A DNA stretch of 64,000 nt from Nocardia sp. NBC_01730. Lineage in GTDB: Bacteria; Actinomycetota; Actinomycetes; Mycobacteriales; Mycobacteriaceae. The stretch is taken from NCBI RefSeq assembly GCF_035920445.1, contig NZ_CP109162.1, positions 6,200,001 through 6,264,000 of the forward strand. Direction: 5' to 3'. Numbering within the stretch: position 1 is the first letter of the stretch; every line of letters begins with the position of its first letter. The notes under the pieces are model-generated. The model searched no databases. It was not told the DNA's origin and was given only the letters and a program-made list of their open reading frames with translations. A program made the translations under genes and the position numbers. Below are positions 26,964 to 55,596 of the stretch, piece by piece.

Positions 26964-27557
26964 ATGGCTGTCCGAGATGCACCTGACACTGTTGTGGCAG
27001 GTGGAGGCACTAAAATTGCAATCCGCGACGCAGCGGTCAAGCTGTTCGGAGCCAAAGGATTCGAACAGACGAGCCTGCGCGAGGTCGCGGATGCGGTAGG
27101 AATCACAAAGGCTTCGCTCTACTATCACTACGCCTCGAAGCTCGATCTGCTGCTCGCGATCATCGATCCGATCGTCGATCACATGCGATCGGTGGTCGTC
27201 GATCTGGACCAGGTGCCGCACGATGCCGAGGGTATTCGCCAGGTCCTGCGGACCTACTTGCGCGGGCTGATCCACCACCGCGGCGCCGGGGCACTGATCA
27301 TGCGCGACACGGTCGCGATCATCAACGCGATGGCCGACCGCTACCCGGATGTGATGGACGCGAGCCGGGTGCTGCGGGAATGGCTGGCCGGGCCGAATGC
27401 CACCGAGGAGGCCAGGCTCCGGGCCTGCGCGGCGCTCGAGGTGATCGGCGTCGCGCTGGTGACCAAGGAATTGGTCCCCGGCGCCGACGATTCGCTGGTC
27501 GAGTCGTCCCTCCTGGACGCGGCGACTTGCGTGCTCACCGCGTGTGGAACCGCGTAG
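26964..27557 (+). CDS. TetR-family regulator of the divergent MMPL gene
   Basis: A 197-residue regulator. HTH helices run over KIAIRDAAVKLFGAKGFEQTSL, REVADAVGITKASLYYHYASK and LDLLLAIIDPIV. The C-terminal ligand domain is all-helical. Divergence from the MMPL gene and the palindrome in between suggest it represses the transporter. The Rrf2-like gene follows 38 bp downstream in the same direction. Confidence 0.9.
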   Translation: MAVRDAPDTVVAGGGTKIAIRDAAVKLFGAKGFEQTSLREVADAVGITKASLYYHYASKLDLLLAIIDPIVDHMRSVVVDLDQVPHDAEGIRQVLRTYLRGLIHHRGAGALIMRDTVAIINAMADRYPDVMDASRVLREWLAGPNATEEARLRACAALEVIGVALVTKELVPGADDSLVESSLLDAATCVLTACGTA

Positions 27558-27595
27558 ATTCGACCTACCGCCGCCAACGCCAGGGAGTTGTCGCT

Positions 27596-28099
27596 GTGCA
27601 CATCAGCGCGAAGGTCGATTACGCGGTGCGGACGCTGCTCGAGATCGCGCGCGCATCGCGGCTGAACCAGACCACGGTCGGACTCGGCGTATCCATCGCG
27701 GAGGCCGCCCCGGTGGTCAAGGCCGAGGCCATCGCCACCGCGCAGCGAATTCCGCCCAAGGTGCTCGAGTCGGTGCTCGGCGAGCTCCGCAGGGCCGATC
27801 TGGTGATCAGCAGGCGAGGTCCGGAGGGCGGCTACTGGCTGGCCAGGCCCGCATCCGAGATCTCCATCGCCGACGTGATCCGCGCGGTCGAGGGCCCGCT
27901 GGCGTCGGTCCGCGGCGAACGACCAGAGGACGTGCGCTATCCCGGCGCGGCCGACTCGTTGCAGCGGGTGTGGATCGCGCTACGGGTGAACCTGCGCGCC
28001 GTACTGGAGAACGTGTCGATCGACGACATCGCGCGGAATCAACTGCCCGGATTCGTCGAGTCGCTCACCGAGGATCCGGGAGCGTGGTCGCGCAGATAG
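27596..28099 (+). CDS. Rrf2-family regulator without Fe-S cysteines
   Basis: A 167-residue protein from GTG 27596 with CAGGGAG upstream. The Rrf2 winged helix is visible: ISAKVDYAVRTLLEIA, IPPKVLESVLGELRRADLVISRRGPEGGYWLARP, and ISIADVIRAVEGPL (each a family landmark). No Cys is present, so unlike IscR or NsrR it cannot bind a cluster through cysteines. An insertion of about 20 residues precedes the recognition helix region. It lies 87 bp before the ABC exporter genes and may control them. Confidence 0.85.
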   Translation: MHISAKVDYAVRTLLEIARASRLNQTTVGLGVSIAEAAPVVKAEAIATAQRIPPKVLESVLGELRRADLVISRRGPEGGYWLARPASEISIADVIRAVEGPLASVRGERPEDVRYPGAADSLQRVWIALRVNLRAVLENVSIDDIARNQLPGFVESLTEDPGAWSRR

Positions 28100-28186
28100 C
28101 GCCGCGCACCCCGACGAAAGGGTATTCATGCTGGTCAGGAATCTCCGCGACGGAGTACACCGTTTGCCGGTAGCCTGCGACTCATC

Positions 28187-29920
28187 ATGCTGATCAGACT
28201 GCTTCGCGCACATCTGTACCCCTACCGCGCCCAATTGGCGGGGGTCGTTGTGCTCCAGCTGATCTCCGTCATCGCGATGCTGTACCTGCCGAGTCTGAAC
28301 GCGGATCTGATCGACGGCGGCGTCACCAAGGGTGATATCGGCTATATCTGGACCATCGGCCTATGGATGCTCGCGGTCACCGGTGTGCAGATCGTCGCGT
28401 CGGCCTCGTCGGTCTATCTCGGTGCGCAGGCGGCTATGGGTGCCGGACGTGATCTGCGCGGCGCGGTGCTGCACCGGGTCGGCACATTCTCCGCGCGGGA
28501 AGTGGGGATGTTCGGCGCTCCGTCGCTGATCACCCGTAACACCAACGACATCCAGCAGGTTCAGCTGCTCATCGTGATGTCGGCGACCATCCTGGTGATG
28601 GCGCCGATCATGTGCGTCGGCGGCATCATCATGGCGCTGCGCGAGGATCTCGGCCTGTCCTGGCTGCTGCTGATCGCGGTGCCCGCACTCGGATTGTCCA
28701 TGGGTTTCATCATCTCCAGGATGGTGCCCGGCTTCCGCGAGATGCAGACCAGGATCGACGAGGTGAACCGGGTGCTGCGCGAGCAGATCACCGGCATCCG
28801 CGTGGTCCGGGCGTTCGTGCGGGAGCGGCAGGAGACCTGGCGCTTCGGCGTGGCCAACACCGAACTCACCGAGACCGCGCTGCGTGTGGGCCGGTTGACG
28901 GCGCTGATGTTCCCGACGGTCATGCTGATCAGCAACGTCACCGCCGTCGCGGTGATCTGGTTCGGCGGGCACGCGATCGATGCGGGGCACATGCAGATCG
29001 GCTCGCTCACCGCGATGCTGTCCTACATCATGCAGATCCTGATGGCCGTGATGATGGCTTCGTTCCTGGCCATGATGGCGCCGCGCGCCGCGGTCTCCGC
29101 GGACCGCATCGCCGAGGTGCTGGACACCGAATCCTCGGTTCGCCCACCGCGATTGCCGCAGCCGTTCAAGGACGACCCGGCCGCAGTGGATTTCCAGTTC
29201 GCCGAATTCGCCTTTCCCGGCGCGGAAAAGCCGGTGCTGAAGGCCATCCGGTTCCAGGTGCGCCCCGGCACCACCACCGCGATCGTCGGGTCCACCGGCG
29301 CGGGCAAGACCACCTTGATCAACCTCGTTCCCCGGTTGATGGACGTCACCGACGGCGCGGTCTACGTCGGCGGAACCGACGTCCGCCACATCGACCTCGA
29401 GCTGCTGCGCTCACGGATCGGCCTCGTCCCGCAGAAGGCGTATCTGTTCTCCGGGACGATCGCGAGCAACCTGCGCTACGGCGATCCGGACGCCACCGAC
29501 GAGGATCTCTGGCACGCACTGGAGATCGCGCAAGCCGCCGATTTCGTCCGGGATATGCCGAAAGGCCTCGAAACCCCGGTCGCGCAGGGCGGCACGACGG
29601 TCTCCGGCGGTCAGCGCCAGCGACTGGCGATCGCGCGGGCACTGGTGAAGAAGCCGAGGGTGTACCTGTTCGACGACTCGTTCTCCGCGCTCGATGTCGC
29701 GACCGACGCCAGGCTGCGAGAGGCGCTGAAGCCGGAGACCGCGAACGCCTCGGTGGTCATCGTCGCCCAGCGCATCACGACCATCCGCGACGCCGATCAG
29801 ATCGTGGTGCTCGAGGACGGCGCGATGGCGGGCGTCGGCACCCATGAGCAGCTGATGCGGGACTGCTCGGAGTACCGGGAGATCGTCGAATCGCAGCTGA
29901 GTGCCGAGGAGGCGCGATGA
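28187..29920 (+). CDS. ABC exporter subunit, degenerate half of a heterodimer
   Basis: A 577-residue exporter half with six TM helices (LLRAHLYPYRAQLAGVVVLQL begins the first) and an NBD. Walker A is GSTGAGKTTLINL, the Q-loop is VPQKAYLF and the signature is VSGGQRQRLAIARAL. The catalytic Glu of Walker B is replaced (VYLFDDSFSALD), and the switch His is Gln (VIVAQRITT). Both losses define the non-hydrolysing site of asymmetric exporters such as TM287/288. Its TGA is overlapped by the ATG of the first mini-ORF in the 71-bp repeat. Confidence 0.92.
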   Translation: MLIRLLRAHLYPYRAQLAGVVVLQLISVIAMLYLPSLNADLIDGGVTKGDIGYIWTIGLWMLAVTGVQIVASASSVYLGAQAAMGAGRDLRGAVLHRVGTFSAREVGMFGAPSLITRNTNDIQQVQLLIVMSATILVMAPIMCVGGIIMALREDLGLSWLLLIAVPALGLSMGFIISRMVPGFREMQTRIDEVNRVLREQITGIRVVRAFVRERQETWRFGVANTELTETALRVGRLTALMFPTVMLISNVTAVAVIWFGGHAIDAGHMQIGSLTAMLSYIMQILMAVMMASFLAMMAPRAAVSADRIAEVLDTESSVRPPRLPQPFKDDPAAVDFQFAEFAFPGAEKPVLKAIRFQVRPGTTTAIVGSTGAGKTTLINLVPRLMDVTDGAVYVGGTDVRHIDLELLRSRIGLVPQKAYLFSGTIASNLRYGDPDATDEDLWHALEIAQAADFVRDMPKGLETPVAQGGTTVSGGQRQRLAIARALVKKPRVYLFDDSFSALDVATDARLREALKPETANASVVIVAQRITTIRDADQIVVLEDGAMAGVGTHEQLMRDCSEYREIVESQLSAEEAR

Positions 29921-29991
29921 GACACAATCGCGCAGCGCTCGTCGAGCCGACGGGGTGCGGGAACCCCCGCAGGACGCGGGAGGCGCGATGA
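29917..29991 (+). CDS. Repeat-encoded 24-residue mini-ORF, copy 1
   Basis: Starts at ATG 29917, overlapping the stop of the upstream ABC gene as ATGA, with GGAGG ending 5 nt upstream. The peptide begins MRHNRAALVE and ends RRTREAR. It stops at 29989-29991, overlapping the start of copy 2. It is basic and hydrophilic, with no TM. It probably serves to pass ribosomes between the two ABC genes rather than as a functional peptide; this is inference. Confidence 0.55.
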   Translation: MRHNRAALVEPTGCGNPRRTREAR

Positions 29992-30062
29992 GACACAATC
30001 GCGCAGCGCTCGTCGAGCCGACGGGGTGCGGGAACCCCCGCAGGACGCGGGAGGCGCGATGA
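29988..30062 (+). CDS. Repeat-encoded 24-residue mini-ORF, copy 2
   Basis: Identical peptide to copy 1, from ATG 29988 to TGA 30060-30062. Its stop overlaps the ATG (30059) of the second ABC gene. Together the two form an uninterrupted ATGA chain: ABC subunit 1, mini-ORF 1, mini-ORF 2, ABC subunit 2. Confidence 0.55.
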   Translation: MRHNRAALVEPTGCGNPRRTREAR

Positions 30063-31963
30063 GGCCAGGAATGCCGAGTCCCGGTGCGCCGGACGCCAAG
30101 GCGAAATCGTTCGGCCCTTCGCTGCGGCGCTTGCTGCGCAGGCTCGCTCCCGAACGGTTCTACGTCGGGTTGATCATCCTGCTCGTCGTCGTATCCGTGG
30201 TACTGAACACGCTGGGCCCGTACATCCTCGGCAAGGCGACCAATCTGGTCTTCGACGGCGTGGTCGGCAAACAACTGCCGTCCGGCGTCACCAAGGACCA
30301 GACGATCGAGGCGCTGCGGGCCAAGGGCGACAACACCTTTGCCGACATGCTCGGCGCGATGAACGTGATCCCGGGCGTGGGAGTCGATTTCGCCGCGGTC
30401 GGCAAGATTCTCACGCTCGTGCTCGTCCTCTACCTCGGCGCCGCGGTGTTCGGCTGGTTGCAGGGCTATCTGCTCAACATCGTCATCAATCGGACAGTGA
30501 AGCGGCTGCGCAGCGACATCGAGGACAAGATCCACCGGCTTCCGTTGCGCTACTTCGATTCCGCGCCGCGCGGTGACGTGCTCAGCAGGGTCACGAACGA
30601 CGTGGACAACATCTCGCAGAGCCTGCAGCAGACCATGAGCCAGCTGCTGACCTCGGTGTTCTCGGTGCTCGGCATCCTGATAATGATGTTCTGGATCTCG
30701 CCGCTGCTGGCGGTGATCGCGCTGCTCACCGTGCCCGCCGCGGTCGTGGTCACCGCGCAAATCGCGAAACGCTCCAAGCCGCACTTCGTCAACCAGTGGA
30801 AATATACCGGCCTGGTCAACGCTCAGGTCGAGGAGGCGTACACCGGGCACGAGGTGGTCACCGCATTCGGCCGCAACCGCGAGGTCGGCAAGGAGTTCGA
30901 CAAGCGCAATCAGGAGCTCTACCAGGCCAGCTTCGCGGCACAGTTCATCTCCGGTCTGATCATGCCCGCGATCATGTTCCTCGGGAACGTGAATTTCGTG
31001 CTGGTCGCACTGGTCGGCGGCCTGCGGGTAGCGACAGGCAACCTGTCGCTCGGTGACGTGCAGGCGTTCATCCAGTACTCCCGCCAATTCAGCCAGCCGC
31101 TGACCCAGATCGGCGCGATGGCCAACCTGCTGCAGTCCGGTGTCGCCTCGGCCGAGCGGATCTTCGAGATTCTCGACGCCGAGGAGCAGAGCCCGGACCC
31201 GGCGATGGCCGACACCCGCCCGGTGGATCGCGGCCGGGTGGAATTCGAGGCCGTCTCATTCCGCTACGAACCGGACAAGCCGGTGATCGAGAGGCTCTCG
31301 CTGCTGGTCGAGCCTGGTCACGTGGTCGCCATCGTCGGCCCTACCGGCGCGGGCAAGACCACGCTGGTGAATCTGGTCATGCGGTTCTACGAGCTCGACG
31401 CGGGCACCATCACCATCGACGGCGTCGATATCACCGAGATCACCCGCGACCACCTGCGCTCGCGCATCGGCATGGTGTTGCAGGACACCTGGCTGTTCCG
31501 CGGCACCATCCGGGAGAACATCGCCTACGGCAACCCGAACGCGAGCGAACAGGACATCATCGCGGCCGCGCGCGCCGCGTACGTCGACCGTTTCGTACAC
31601 GCGCTGCCCGACGGCTACGACACGATCATCGACGAGGAGGGCTCCGGCGTCAGCGCGGGCGAGAAGCAGCTGATCACCATCGCGCGAGCATTCCTGGCCA
31701 AGCCGTCCATCCTCATCCTCGACGAGGCGACCAGCTCGGTGGACACCCGTACCGAGCTGCTGGTGCAACACGCGACCGCCGCGCTGCGCCGGGACCGGAC
31801 CAGCTTCGTCATCGCCCACCGCCTCTCCACCATCCGCGACGCCGATCTGATCGTCGTCATGGAGGCGGGCCGGATCGTGGAACACGGCACGCACGAACGC
31901 CTGCTCGAGGAGCGCGGGCCGTACTACCGCCTGTACAACGCCCAGTTCGCCGCGGCTCTGTAG
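30059..31963 (+). CDS. ABC exporter subunit, catalytic half of the heterodimer
   Basis: A 634-residue exporter half from ATG 30059 with SD GGAGG supplied by the repeat. Six TM helices are present, with an extracytoplasmic insertion of about 60 residues after TM1 (NLVFDGVVGKQLPSGVTKDQ region). The NBD has Walker A GPTGAGKTTLVNL, Walker B ILILDEATSSVD with the catalytic Glu, H-loop IAHRLST and variant signature VSAGEKQLITIARA. This complements the degenerate partner. The substrate is not evident. Confidence 0.92.
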   Translation: MRPGMPSPGAPDAKAKSFGPSLRRLLRRLAPERFYVGLIILLVVVSVVLNTLGPYILGKATNLVFDGVVGKQLPSGVTKDQTIEALRAKGDNTFADMLGAMNVIPGVGVDFAAVGKILTLVLVLYLGAAVFGWLQGYLLNIVINRTVKRLRSDIEDKIHRLPLRYFDSAPRGDVLSRVTNDVDNISQSLQQTMSQLLTSVFSVLGILIMMFWISPLLAVIALLTVPAAVVVTAQIAKRSKPHFVNQWKYTGLVNAQVEEAYTGHEVVTAFGRNREVGKEFDKRNQELYQASFAAQFISGLIMPAIMFLGNVNFVLVALVGGLRVATGNLSLGDVQAFIQYSRQFSQPLTQIGAMANLLQSGVASAERIFEILDAEEQSPDPAMADTRPVDRGRVEFEAVSFRYEPDKPVIERLSLLVEPGHVVAIVGPTGAGKTTLVNLVMRFYELDAGTITIDGVDITEITRDHLRSRIGMVLQDTWLFRGTIRENIAYGNPNASEQDIIAAARAAYVDRFVHALPDGYDTIIDEEGSGVSAGEKQLITIARAFLAKPSILILDEATSSVDTRTELLVQHATAALRRDRTSFVIAHRLSTIRDADLIVVMEAGRIVEHGTHERLLEERGPYYRLYNAQFAAAL

Positions 31964-32153
31964 TTTTGGCCGCGCGGGCCGTGAACGGGGAATGCTCGGT
32001 TTCGCTGCGCTCGGAAGTGGGGGTCGGGCCGAGTGGTTGGGTCTGGAGGCGATCACTGTGCAGGGTTGCCTTCGCCTGCGGCGCGGCGGTGTTCGCCGCC
32101 GTGCTGGGCGACGATGTCGACACGCGCGCACCCACGGGCGGTGCCGGAGCTGA

Positions 32154-33449
<1,296 letters not shown>

Positions 33450-34888: not shown

Positions 34889-35626
34889 TCAGGCCTTGAC
34901 GACCTGGGTGCCGCCGGCGAACTTATCGTGCCAGCCCTGCTTGTTCGGGTCCTGCGAGATGGTGACCATGATGTAGATCGCCAGGCCCAGCGCGACGAGG
35001 CCGCCGACGCACGGGATGATGTTCGCCGCGAGGAAGAGGTTCCGCTTCAGCGAGGTGACCGGGTCGATCTTGGCGGCGCCGCCGGGGGCGAGCACCTTCA
35101 GGCCGAGGATCTTCTTGCCCAGCGTGGTGCCCTGCGAGGTCTCCATGCCGACGAAGTAGCCGAGCTCGACAAGGGTCCAGACCAGGCCGAGACCAATGGT
35201 CAGGCCGAGCGAGTTGTTGACCAGGATGTACAGGATGAAGTAGGGGATCATCAGGATCAGCCCGTCGATGACGCGGGCGCCGATGCGGGTGCCGAGGTCA
35301 CCAGGCTGGCCGTTGTAGCCGAAGTTGCCCGGCTGCTGCGGGTACGGCTGCTGACCGTAGGCATCCTGCCCGTACTGCGGCTGCTGCCCGTACTGCGGCT
35401 GCTGCCCGTACTGGGGCTGCTGCCCGTACTGCGGCTGCTGGCCGTACTGCTGCTGCGGCTGCTGGCCGTATTGTGGCTGCTGCCCATGCTGGGGCTGCTG
35501 GCCATGCTGGGGCTGCTGCCCGTACTGGGGCTGCTGCCCGTACTGGTCGCCGCCCTGCGGGTACGGCTGCCCGTACGGCTGCCCGCCCTGCGGATACTGG
35601 TTGGGGTCGTACCCACCGCTTGTCAT
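34889..35626 (-). CDS. RDD-family membrane protein with QPQYGQ repeats
   Basis: A 245-residue protein from ATG 35626. Residues 1-105 consist of about nine near-perfect hexapeptides (QQPQYG, two with His for Tyr). The RDD domain follows: LGTRIGARVIDGLILMIPYF, VELGYFVGMETSQGTTLGKKILGLKV, and a C-terminal TM with SQDPNKQGWHDKFAGGTQVV. RDD proteins are poorly characterised; some act as cation/proton antiporters. The repeated tail may scaffold or phase-separate at the membrane, which is inference. Confidence 0.85.
   Translation of the reverse strand: MTSGGYDPNQYPQGGQPYGQPYPQGGDQYGQQPQYGQQPQHGQQPQHGQQPQYGQQPQQQYGQQPQYGQQPQYGQQPQYGQQPQYGQDAYGQQPYPQQPGNFGYNGQPGDLGTRIGARVIDGLILMIPYFILYILVNNSLGLTIGLGLVWTLVELGYFVGMETSQGTTLGKKILGLKVLAPGGAAKIDPVTSLKRNLFLAANIIPCVGGLVALGLAIYIMVTISQDPNKQGWHDKFAGGTQVVKA
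35350..35545 (-). repeat. 18-bp coding repeats (QQPQYG) in the RDD gene
   Basis: The unit reads CTGCTGCCCGTACTGCGG on the plus strand, with single-base variants, repeated in phase about nine times with one irregular unit (QQPQQQYG). The in-frame 18-bp period means copy-number changes would keep the reading frame. Confidence 0.85.
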
Positions 35627-54444: not shown

Positions 54445-55596
54445 GTGACACAACCACCGTACGGATACGGACCGGTTCCGCATGGCGGGCGCCCGGTTCC
54501 GCCCCAGCCCGGCTACGGTCCGCCACCTGCCTACGGTTCGCCGCCCGCATACGGACCGCCACCCGCATACGGTTCGCCGCCCGGTTACGGTTCGCCGCCG
54601 GGATATGGTCCGCCGCCCGGTTATTCGCCGCCCGGTTACGGTCCGCCACCGGGTTATCGCCCGCAGATGCCGCCGCCGATGCCCTACGGTCCGCCTGGTC
54701 GACGGCCGTATCCGCCGCCGCGCAAACGGGGCGGCGGATGGGTGGCGTTGTTGATCGTCGTCGTGTTTCTCGTCGCCGGAGGGCTGGTGCGCAACGCGGT
54801 CTCCGTCGGACGGAACAACAGTGGCCCGTCCGGTCCGCAGCCCACCTTCACTTTCACTCCCCAGCCAGACGGTTCGACGGGTCCGGCCGAGACGGGCAGC
54901 AACCCGCTGCTCACAGACCCGAACGTGACTCTGCTCCCGGCGCGGTGCGCGTACTCCCCGTGGGGCACTCAGGTCGACGCCGCGCGCAAGTTCTTCGAAA
55001 GCGCCGCGTCGTGCCTGGAGGCGGCGTGGAAACCGGTGTTGCGAAAGGAGAATCTGCCGTTTCAGCCGCCCGCGTTGAACGTCAGCGCGACCACGACGGG
55101 CATCACGACGCCGTGCACCGGGTCGACGAGCAATTTCGCCGCGTTCTACTGCCCGGCGAACAAGACCATCTATATGCCGATCAGCCAGCTGCAGACCGAC
55201 TACTTCAAGGACAACTGGGTGGTCTACCTGTCGGTCTTCGCACATGAGTATGGTCACCACGTGCAGGCGATGTCCGGCATTCTGCGCAAGGCGAACAGCG
55301 ATCGGGCCGACGCGGGCCCGCGCAGCGCCAAGGGGCTGGAACTGTCGCGCCGAGTCGAATTGCAGGCCAACTGCTTCGACGGCATGTACCTCTCGTCCTC
55401 GGCCGGAGGCGGCTCGCTGACCAACCCGCAGCTCACCTTGGCCCGCAAGGACGCGTACGGCCGTGGTGACCAGGCAGGCGACATGCGAGACCACGGCACG
55501 TCCGAGAACGGCGGCCAGTGGTTCGAGACGGGGTTGGACAACAACCGTGCGGCCCAGTGCAATACATTCACCGCATCGACGGGCGAGGTGAACTGA
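54445..55596 (+). CDS. Neutral zinc metallopeptidase (YpfJ family) with Pro/Gly/Tyr-rich tail
   Basis: A 383-residue protein from GTG 54445. Residues 1-90 are PPPGYG/SPPAYG repeats, then one TM helix (VALLIVVVFLVAGGLV). The extracytoplasmic peptidase domain has the metal-binding HEYGHHVQA and, later, the Glu-bearing RRVELQANCFDGMYL. The domain is PF04228-like. Two Cys pairs may form disulfides. Substrate unknown. Confidence 0.9.
   Translation: MTQPPYGYGPVPHGGRPVPPQPGYGPPPAYGSPPAYGPPPAYGSPPGYGSPPGYGPPPGYSPPGYGPPPGYRPQMPPPMPYGPPGRRPYPPPRKRGGGWVALLIVVVFLVAGGLVRNAVSVGRNNSGPSGPQPTFTFTPQPDGSTGPAETGSNPLLTDPNVTLLPARCAYSPWGTQVDAARKFFESAASCLEAAWKPVLRKENLPFQPPALNVSATTTGITTPCTGSTSNFAAFYCPANKTIYMPISQLQTDYFKDNWVVYLSVFAHEYGHHVQAMSGILRKANSDRADAGPRSAKGLELSRRVELQANCFDGMYLSSSAGGGSLTNPQLTLARKDAYGRGDQAGDMRDHGTSENGGQWFETGLDNNRAAQCNTFTASTGEVN

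Follow-up and report, generated by a model that had tools for sequence, protein, structure and literature searches.

The described systems closest to the repeat considered here are the mycobacterial interspersed repetitive units (MIRUs), whose 77- and 53-bp units are known from senX3-regX3. How does a 71-bp repeat of Nocardia sp. NBC_01730 compare with them? This repeat separates two ATP-binding cassette (ABC) exporter genes, ABC1 and ABC2, within a stretch of 64,000 nucleotides, here called the window, that covers 6200001-6264000 of an 8.68-Mb, one-contig genome. Both it and the MIRUs are short tandem units dispersed over gene junctions, with a length of 2 mod 3; in both, the unit opens at an NTGA, closes with a Shine-Dalgarno (SD) sequence near the next start, itself mostly NTGA, and forms a relay of mini open reading frames (mini-ORFs). 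The Nocardia element differs in its 58-bp core, its inner TGCGGG/CCCGCA hairpin and its arm complementary to a start. Supply et al. in 1997 are said to have made the original proposal that MIRUs insert at DTGA sites involved in translational coupling.

A second comparison is with the repetitive extragenic palindromes (REPs) and bacterial interspersed mosaic elements (BIMEs). These are small, dispersed, hairpin-bearing repeats with a short fixed target, mobilised in trans by REP-associated tyrosine transposases (RAYT, Y1) of the IS200/IS605 type. The small dispersed hairpins and the short fixed target are shared; the Nocardia element differs in lying in translated junctions. The exporter genes themselves resemble those of TM287/288-type heterodimeric ABC exporters, in which the genes are adjacent, the Walker B Glu is replaced in one subunit and the signature is altered in the other. 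The pair is a mere host of the insertion, and the repeat is absent from 105 of 140 orthologous pairs.

We propose that a small, non-autonomous mobile repeat has inserted at NTGA overlaps, that the site is copied in the process, and that a relay of mini-ORFs preserves translational coupling; we put the probability of this reading at about 0.82. A repeat with a core of about 58 bp would insert at NTGA stop/start overlaps inside operons. A duplicate of the insertion site, comprising SD, spacer and NTGA in about 11-17 bp, would remain on either side, so that the upstream gene would keep its stop and the downstream gene its SD and start. Terminating and reinitiating ribosomes would read the insert as a single mini-ORF or as several linked by NTGA, and the translational coupling of both genes would thereby survive. 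Relay-breaking indels would be purged by purifying selection, and the copy number would alter through tandem duplication and through precise losses between the direct repeats. From the dispersal, the site specificity, the empty sites, the repeated site sequence, the frame conservation and the arm complementary to the start region, all of which were computed, we infer mobility, ribosome reinitiation, and selection as the cause of the conserved frame.

Dispersal of the repeat and the relay of mini-ORFs

At 29908-30063 Tandem Repeats Finder reports a period of 71, 2.2 copies, 100% matches and a score of 312. ATGA stop/start overlaps stand at 29917-29920, 29988-29991 and 30059-30062, and GGAGG lies upstream of every ATG in the chain from ABC1 through mini-ORF 1 and mini-ORF 2 to ABC2. 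An earlier, sequence-only reading had described two perfect 71-bp units with an ATGA at every step and a perfect hairpin in each; the repeat search and the open reading frames (ORFs) confirm the former, and the hairpin, TGCGGG-AACC-CCCGCA, is present in both units (table 1).

How widely is the unit dispersed? BLASTN found 26 matches in its own genome. A covariance model (R1), built from 14 own-genome units, recovered 39 units at 20 loci there (E <= 0.001, two antisense self-matches excluded) and matched 105 of 148 sampled Nocardia genomes (E <= 0.01); its E-values are rough, and scans of more than 40 genomes were run with stricter filters. In an order-wide scan 29 of 298 genomes matched, 5 from the window's genus, 22 from a family (f14) taken as Pseudonocardiaceae and 2 others whose E is close to the limit. 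A 25-base core pattern occurs in at least 120 stretches of named genomes; among the matches listed the genera are Nocardia, Skermania, Aldersonia, Amycolatopsis, Saccharopolyspora, Prauserella and others, and also Myceligenerans and Antribacter of the Promicromonosporaceae. The period is about 68-78 bp outside the window, and arrays of 1-3 units are found at many loci. One f14 genome (L176) has two units at the GTGA junction of an orthologous ABC pair (64% identity for ABC1, 58% for ABC2).

The unit is not, then, unique to one site. With 39 units at 20 loci of a one-contig genome, and matches in many other assemblies, it is unlikely that chance or assembly error lies behind it; an assembly artefact or a single duplication is rejected by the same dispersal together with the series of ABC junctions described below. 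A plasmid collection gave no match to the repeat. A strict pattern for the youngest subfamily found none in the named genomes, where records close to the window's genome may be missing, and a literature search of partial coverage found no report of this repeat family in Nocardia or Pseudonocardiaceae.

Two of the own-genome loci stand apart. In L019 (near 5295283) GTGC replaces ATGA, off any stop/start overlap, and the units are still in tandem at 71-bp spacing; L164 (near 2974107) is one degenerate unit, and beside it lies a tandem array of about 80 bp to which it is unrelated.

What does the ABC junction look like where the repeat is absent? ABC1 is present in all 148 sampled Nocardia genomes; its positions in three of them match those in three named Nocardia genomes, which fixes the genus. 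In all, 140 junctions were read: that of the window and those of 139 of 140 fetched relatives, one contig ending at the junction. The sample omits seven of the 148 genomes, those with the lowest ABC1 similarity. In the 105 empty junctions the genes overlap directly (101 ATGA, 3 GTGA, 1 TTGA); the other 35 have an insert, 29-218 bp long, at exactly that overlap. Single inserts measure 29, 53, 56, 68, 71, 74 or 77 bp, each 2 mod 3, and in the arrays (72+71, 72+74, 75+74 and 72+72+74 bp) the frame is restored in sum. Because so many genomes have no unit here, the units are dispensable for the exporter. One junction, 140 genomes and many insert lengths together make a natural, replicated test of selection on translational coupling at overlapping genes.

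A tree of the flanks shows 23 changes of the filled or empty state, at least 15 of them forced by starred branches, and the state is clustered beyond shuffled labels (23 versus 31.4 changes). Gain and loss are in general indistinguishable on this tree. Among genomes only 7-15 of 650 flanking bases apart (species representatives, draft assemblies) the insert measures 149, 29, 29 and 0 bp. The empty L153 adjoins L147, which has the 149-bp insert, and the two differ at 7 of 650 flanking bases; a precise loss or a fresh gain is therefore recent.

Other repeats occupy the ABC junction as well. In other Nocardia (L111, L115, L119 and L127) a different repeat, CTCCGCCTTCGCTGCGG and related sequences, sits at the same NTGA with relay-compatible inserts of 68-139 bp; the junction therefore accepts more than one element family. 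A third type, GCGAGCTTGCGAGCGAA...GAGGTGGAGTC-ATGA, 77 bp long, is found in L099 and L132, and in the window's own genome a similar end, GAGGTGGAGTC-ATGA, comes after the start of a 71-bp unit (L017, near 6031414).

If ribosomes pass through these inserts, is their path kept intact? The relay is unbroken in all 35 filled ABC junctions: reading from the ATG or GTG over the ABC1 stop crosses one or two mini-ORFs, each 10 to 73 codons long, and arrives exactly at the ABC2 start (in L120 at a start 12 bases upstream of the expected codon 1). No broken exit frame was found among the 35 inserts of the 140 junctions. With letters shuffled at the same length 17.8 intact relays would be expected, and 7.5 when 0-2 bases are also added. 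Simulated indels kept the relay in 8% (+1), 32% (+2), 32% (-1) and 8% (-2) of cases, and in 95% and 98% when three bases were gained or lost.

The junction of own-genome locus L010 serves as a second series. It was located in 20 of 98 genomes searched, the window's own included, and all 20 are unbroken, decayed remnants included: 8 have mini-ORFs (of 8, 10, 22, 24, 24, 24+24, 59 or 70 codons), 11 overlap directly and 1 has a remnant fused to the gene. The relay claimed in the sequence-only reading is thus real and better supported than was claimed. In L340 a decayed unit forms one continuous frame with the gene downstream, which has 310 instead of about 289 codons, and such repeats may be a source of new N-termini.

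Among the 120 stretches of named genomes in the matches listed, 14 with short flanks were dropped and 106 read; a full relay runs from the unit start in 57 of them, compared with 17 of 5075 control positions, or in 60 compared with 121 under a looser rule. Many of those failing the rule are nevertheless flanked by an SD on one side and a start on the other. The own-genome set comprised 19 loci, that of the window and 18 others; it covers 18 of the 20 R1 loci plus a weaker one, and 12 of the 19 pass a strict rule. Inspection by eye of the seven failures showed that L162 and L014 pass with NTGA throughout, and L018 and L161 with TGATG as the last step. L011 passes by rule; its true upstream stop is probably 37 bases 5' of the unit, linked by TGATG and a 15-codon remnant.

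The repeated site and the complementary arm

The sequence-only reading had credited each unit with its own SD. Instead, the SD looks mostly like part of a site duplication. The 13 bp from GGAGG to ATGA are probably a copy of the insertion site rather than a part of the element; they are already found at the ABC1 3' end, and insertion probably duplicates this site together with its SD. Because the site sequence is repeated, the SD and spacer of the unit seem mostly to be the host's, both genes keeping their signals after insertion. The bases before the last and the first NTGA are identical at 10.1 of 14 positions versus 9.0 when shuffled (0 of 20000 shuffles as high), and the 6-bp spacer is identical before both in 22 of the 35 filled ABC junctions versus 6.7 shuffled. 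Most own-genome loci have GGAGG just upstream of ATGA; L013 and L018 repeat the unusual tails CGACCCGATGA and AGGGCAGGATGA. At the junctions that hold other elements, 3-5 bases are in common with the tail in L099, L132, L111, L119 and L127, and 15 in L115. In L176 the repeated site seemingly continues 3' of the GTGA, within the downstream gene. The way in which such elements insert is suggested by the empty sites together with the repetition of the site.

The unit also has an internal arm: the 11-14 bases 5' of the GCCGACCGGG core are complementary to the SD, spacer and start of their own locus. Of the 120 named stretches, 113 contain a start that has an SD-like stretch, and 104 of these are distinct. 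Among these matches, the right arm pairs with its own start region at -16.86 kcal/mol, compared with -11.7 when loci are crossed (103 units, 0 of 5000 shuffles); with near-duplicates removed the values are -16.41 and -11.32 (55 units). Its pairing with the 3' flank that holds the next start is likewise stronger at the own locus (-15.86 versus -14.04, 0 of 5000 shuffles). Three control comparisons, with the inner segment and with upstream and downstream stretches, were flat; pairing of the start region with the inner segment (+5..+18) was rejected, at -6.43 versus -6.45 without any locus-specific signal. For the ABC set the values are -21.2 versus -18.1 crossed (25 of 35 junctions, the 10 with other or shortened elements being omitted) and for the own genome -19.3 versus -16.1 (16 of 19 loci), each with 0 of 10000 shuffles. 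At three spacer positions in 62 distinct ungapped units we counted 109 Watson-Crick pairs of 186 versus 55.7 shuffled, and 15 G.U pairs versus 25.

Does the arm choose the site, or the site the arm? Six young copies in the own genome pair with their own site at -19.3, weaker than the -21.4 found when crossed. Insertion guided by perfect pairing of arm and target is therefore disfavoured. Given these six copies, the arm seems to be carried along by the element and to be matched to its site afterwards, either by selection or because imperfect palindromes are corrected from a template; the scarcity of G.U pairs hints at a cause at the level of DNA, such as templated repair of these palindromes. 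In the window, the last unit together with the ABC2 start is predicted to fold with the arm on that start, and the unit alone as a different 7-bp hairpin (29912-29918 x 29927-29933); z-scores for the folds are modest, at -2.0 to -2.9.

One may ask, tentatively, whether this is a site-adapting mobile RNA/DNA element, which copies the SD-start overlap and whose arm becomes complementary to that start, older copies matching their site and young arms fitting another. The custom hairpin could close the start before or after it, and a portable, locus-tailored translational switch would be spreading through operons of several actinobacterial families. A literature search of partial coverage did not find an arm fitting its own locus's start region described.

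Kinship with MIRUs and competing explanations

Is the repeat itself a MIRU? A 25-base MIRU motif, with as many as 2 mismatches allowed, is present in 178 of 396 genomes from genus g2, taken as Mycobacterium from the motif alone; the reversed control gave 0 among the matches listed. The copies in g2 form 50- or 53-bp arrays or singles, shortly before starts that are mostly NTGA. Of 30 loci fetched (L180-L209), 27 match a looser motif, and a relay is present in 13 of these 27 versus 46 of 969 control positions. Searched against the 30 loci, R1 found nothing at E < 0.01; its best hit, at 0.015, lay off the motif, and near the motif E was 1.8 or worse. None of the 29 genomes matching in the order-wide scan belongs to g2. 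The sequence-only reading had called the repeat MIRU-like; the same logic is there, and membership by sequence is not supported. We conclude that the Nocardia repeat probably represents a new sequence family that would work as mycobacterial MIRUs do, with sequence homology not detected, and that this mode of existence is not confined to mycobacteria.

PMC2734929 gives the rnc-fpg1 spacing as 279-358 bp in the M. tuberculosis complex versus 1-54 bp in other mycobacteria, a parallel to our empty sites. According to PMC4213456, the senX3-regX3 MIRUs occur in the M. tuberculosis complex and M. leprae only; the 25-base motif is far wider in g2 than is stated there for these MIRUs. As for a mobiliser of the REP kind, Y1_Tnp (PF01797) was found in 4 of 24 genomes, namely the window's own, 0 of 11 other repeat-rich genomes and 3 of 12 without a repeat match; a Y1/RAYT transposase is rejected on this pattern of presence and absence.

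If the relay merely preserves coupling, might the number of units nevertheless matter? Each extra mini-ORF could cost ribosomes, and arrays would then be adjustable attenuators, as has been proposed for MIRUs; how strongly the second gene is expressed would be tuned by copy number, which for this pair means the ratio of degenerate to catalytic ABC subunit. The different insert lengths of near relatives and the arrays of 1-3 units are consistent with such tuning, and differential translation within an operon is among the functions proposed for MIRU variable-number tandem repeats (PMC2734929). However, most genomes manage without any unit at the ABC junction, and we regard tuning as possible but doubtful. 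The arm might instead form an RNA switch, pairing with the start copy before or after it so that upstream ribosome traffic opens or closes the downstream start. The pairing energies at the own start and the 3' flank, with their flat controls, point this way, as does the predicted fold of the last unit onto the ABC2 start. But the 3' signal may merely mirror the site copy, in the young copies pairing with the own site is weaker than crossed pairing, G.U pairs are fewer than shuffling gives, as a DNA-level cause would have it, and the unit alone folds differently and with modest z-scores; on balance a switch seems rather unlikely.

An action of the arrays on transcription, as internal promoter or terminator with the relay incidental, is improbable. 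Promoter activity is reported for the MIRU-bearing senX3-regX3 intergenic region (PMC4213456), but such an action would not explain why the exit frame is kept at 35 of 35 and at 20 of 20 junctions, and the inner hairpin of the window sequence has no T run 3' of it. Nor do the mini-ORF peptides look like a product in themselves. Their frames are open at all filled ABC junctions read, and RVRVSR..TQEAR is common to some of them, but the same DNA is read in differing frames across loci and in the 72- and 75-bp units, and lengths run from 10 to 73 codons. Since frame and length both vary, what is conserved is the exit frame and not the peptide, and we consider a functional peptide very improbable indeed.

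Several points weigh against insertion with a copied site and a coupling-preserving relay. The 35 filled junctions are not 35 independent events, nor are the named loci independent, and a fixed unit length of 2 mod 3 gives part of the frame conservation by itself, so that independent evidence comes from the length variants only. Since any 71-bp length passes by design and inserts are shared among relatives, the relay evidence draws its weight from the length classes and the second junction. Among the matches listed, 49 of the 106 named loci (46 by the looser rule) have no relay from the unit start, and 3 of 19 own-genome loci (L163, L164 and L019) have none even on inspection. The 6-bp spacer is unrepeated in 13 of the 35 filled junctions, and a site duplication could in some of its features be imitated by recombination between direct repeats on the flanks. 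Transposition was not seen and no mobilising enzyme was found.

The exporter pair and other features of the window

The Walker B motif of ABC1 reads LFDDSFSALD in translation, with Asp at the position of the catalytic Glu; that of ABC2 reads LDEATSSVD, and its signature is altered to VSAGEKQ. Because of this Asp and this altered signature, the pair is likely a heterodimeric exporter with one degenerate site. The nearest solved chains are 8wcw_A for ABC1 and 8wcw_B for ABC2, followed by TM287 (3qf4_A) and TM288 (3qf4_B). ABC1 falls under all curated NCBIfam cut-offs shown, the best being TIGR02204 (MsbA_rel). The mechanical ORF of ABC2 could open at GTG 30026; the relay start is the ATG at 30059.

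Table 1. Coordinates, in the window, of the exporter genes and of the parts of the two repeat units between them.
Feature	Position	Strand	Description	Basis
ABC1	28187..29920	+	first half-transporter of likely heterodimeric ABC exporter	ORF and translation
Putative site copy 1, GGAGGCGCGATGA	29908..29920	+	ABC1 3' end: SD, spacer, stop/start overlap	sequence; identical to copy 3, longest common suffix 13 bp
Start hairpin, left arm GGCGCGATGAG (predicted)	29911..29921 (unit 1); 29982-29992 (unit 2)	+		duplex prediction; locus-specific complementarity in relatives
Mini-ORF 1	29917..29991	+	24 codons; ATG overlaps ABC1 TGA, TGA overlaps mini-ORF 2 ATG	
Element core, unit 1	29921..29978	+	58 bp	stretch between site copies; core recurs across genome
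Start hairpin, right arm CTCGTCGAGCC (predicted)	29938..29948 (unit 1); 30009-30019 (unit 2)	+	one mismatch and one G.U here against left arm	
Inner hairpin TGCGGG-AACC-CCCGCA	29956..29971 (unit 1); 30027-30042 (unit 2)	+		stem almost constant, loop variable in 14 own-genome units
Putative site copy 2	29979..29991	+		sequence
Mini-ORF 2	29988..30062	+	24 codons; TGA overlaps ABC2 ATG	
Element core, unit 2	29992..30049	+	58 bp, identical to unit 1	sequence, Tandem Repeats Finder
Putative site copy 3	30050..30062	+	contains SD and start of ABC2	sequence
ABC2	30059..31963	+	second half-transporter	ORF and translation

Rfam gave 0 matches at gathering score in 27000-33000 of the window. The repeats are candidate strain-typing markers in Nocardia and Pseudonocardiaceae. 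Other tandem repeats in the window, at 35345-35597 and 54507-54664, have periods of 12-96 and are perhaps low-complexity coding sequence.

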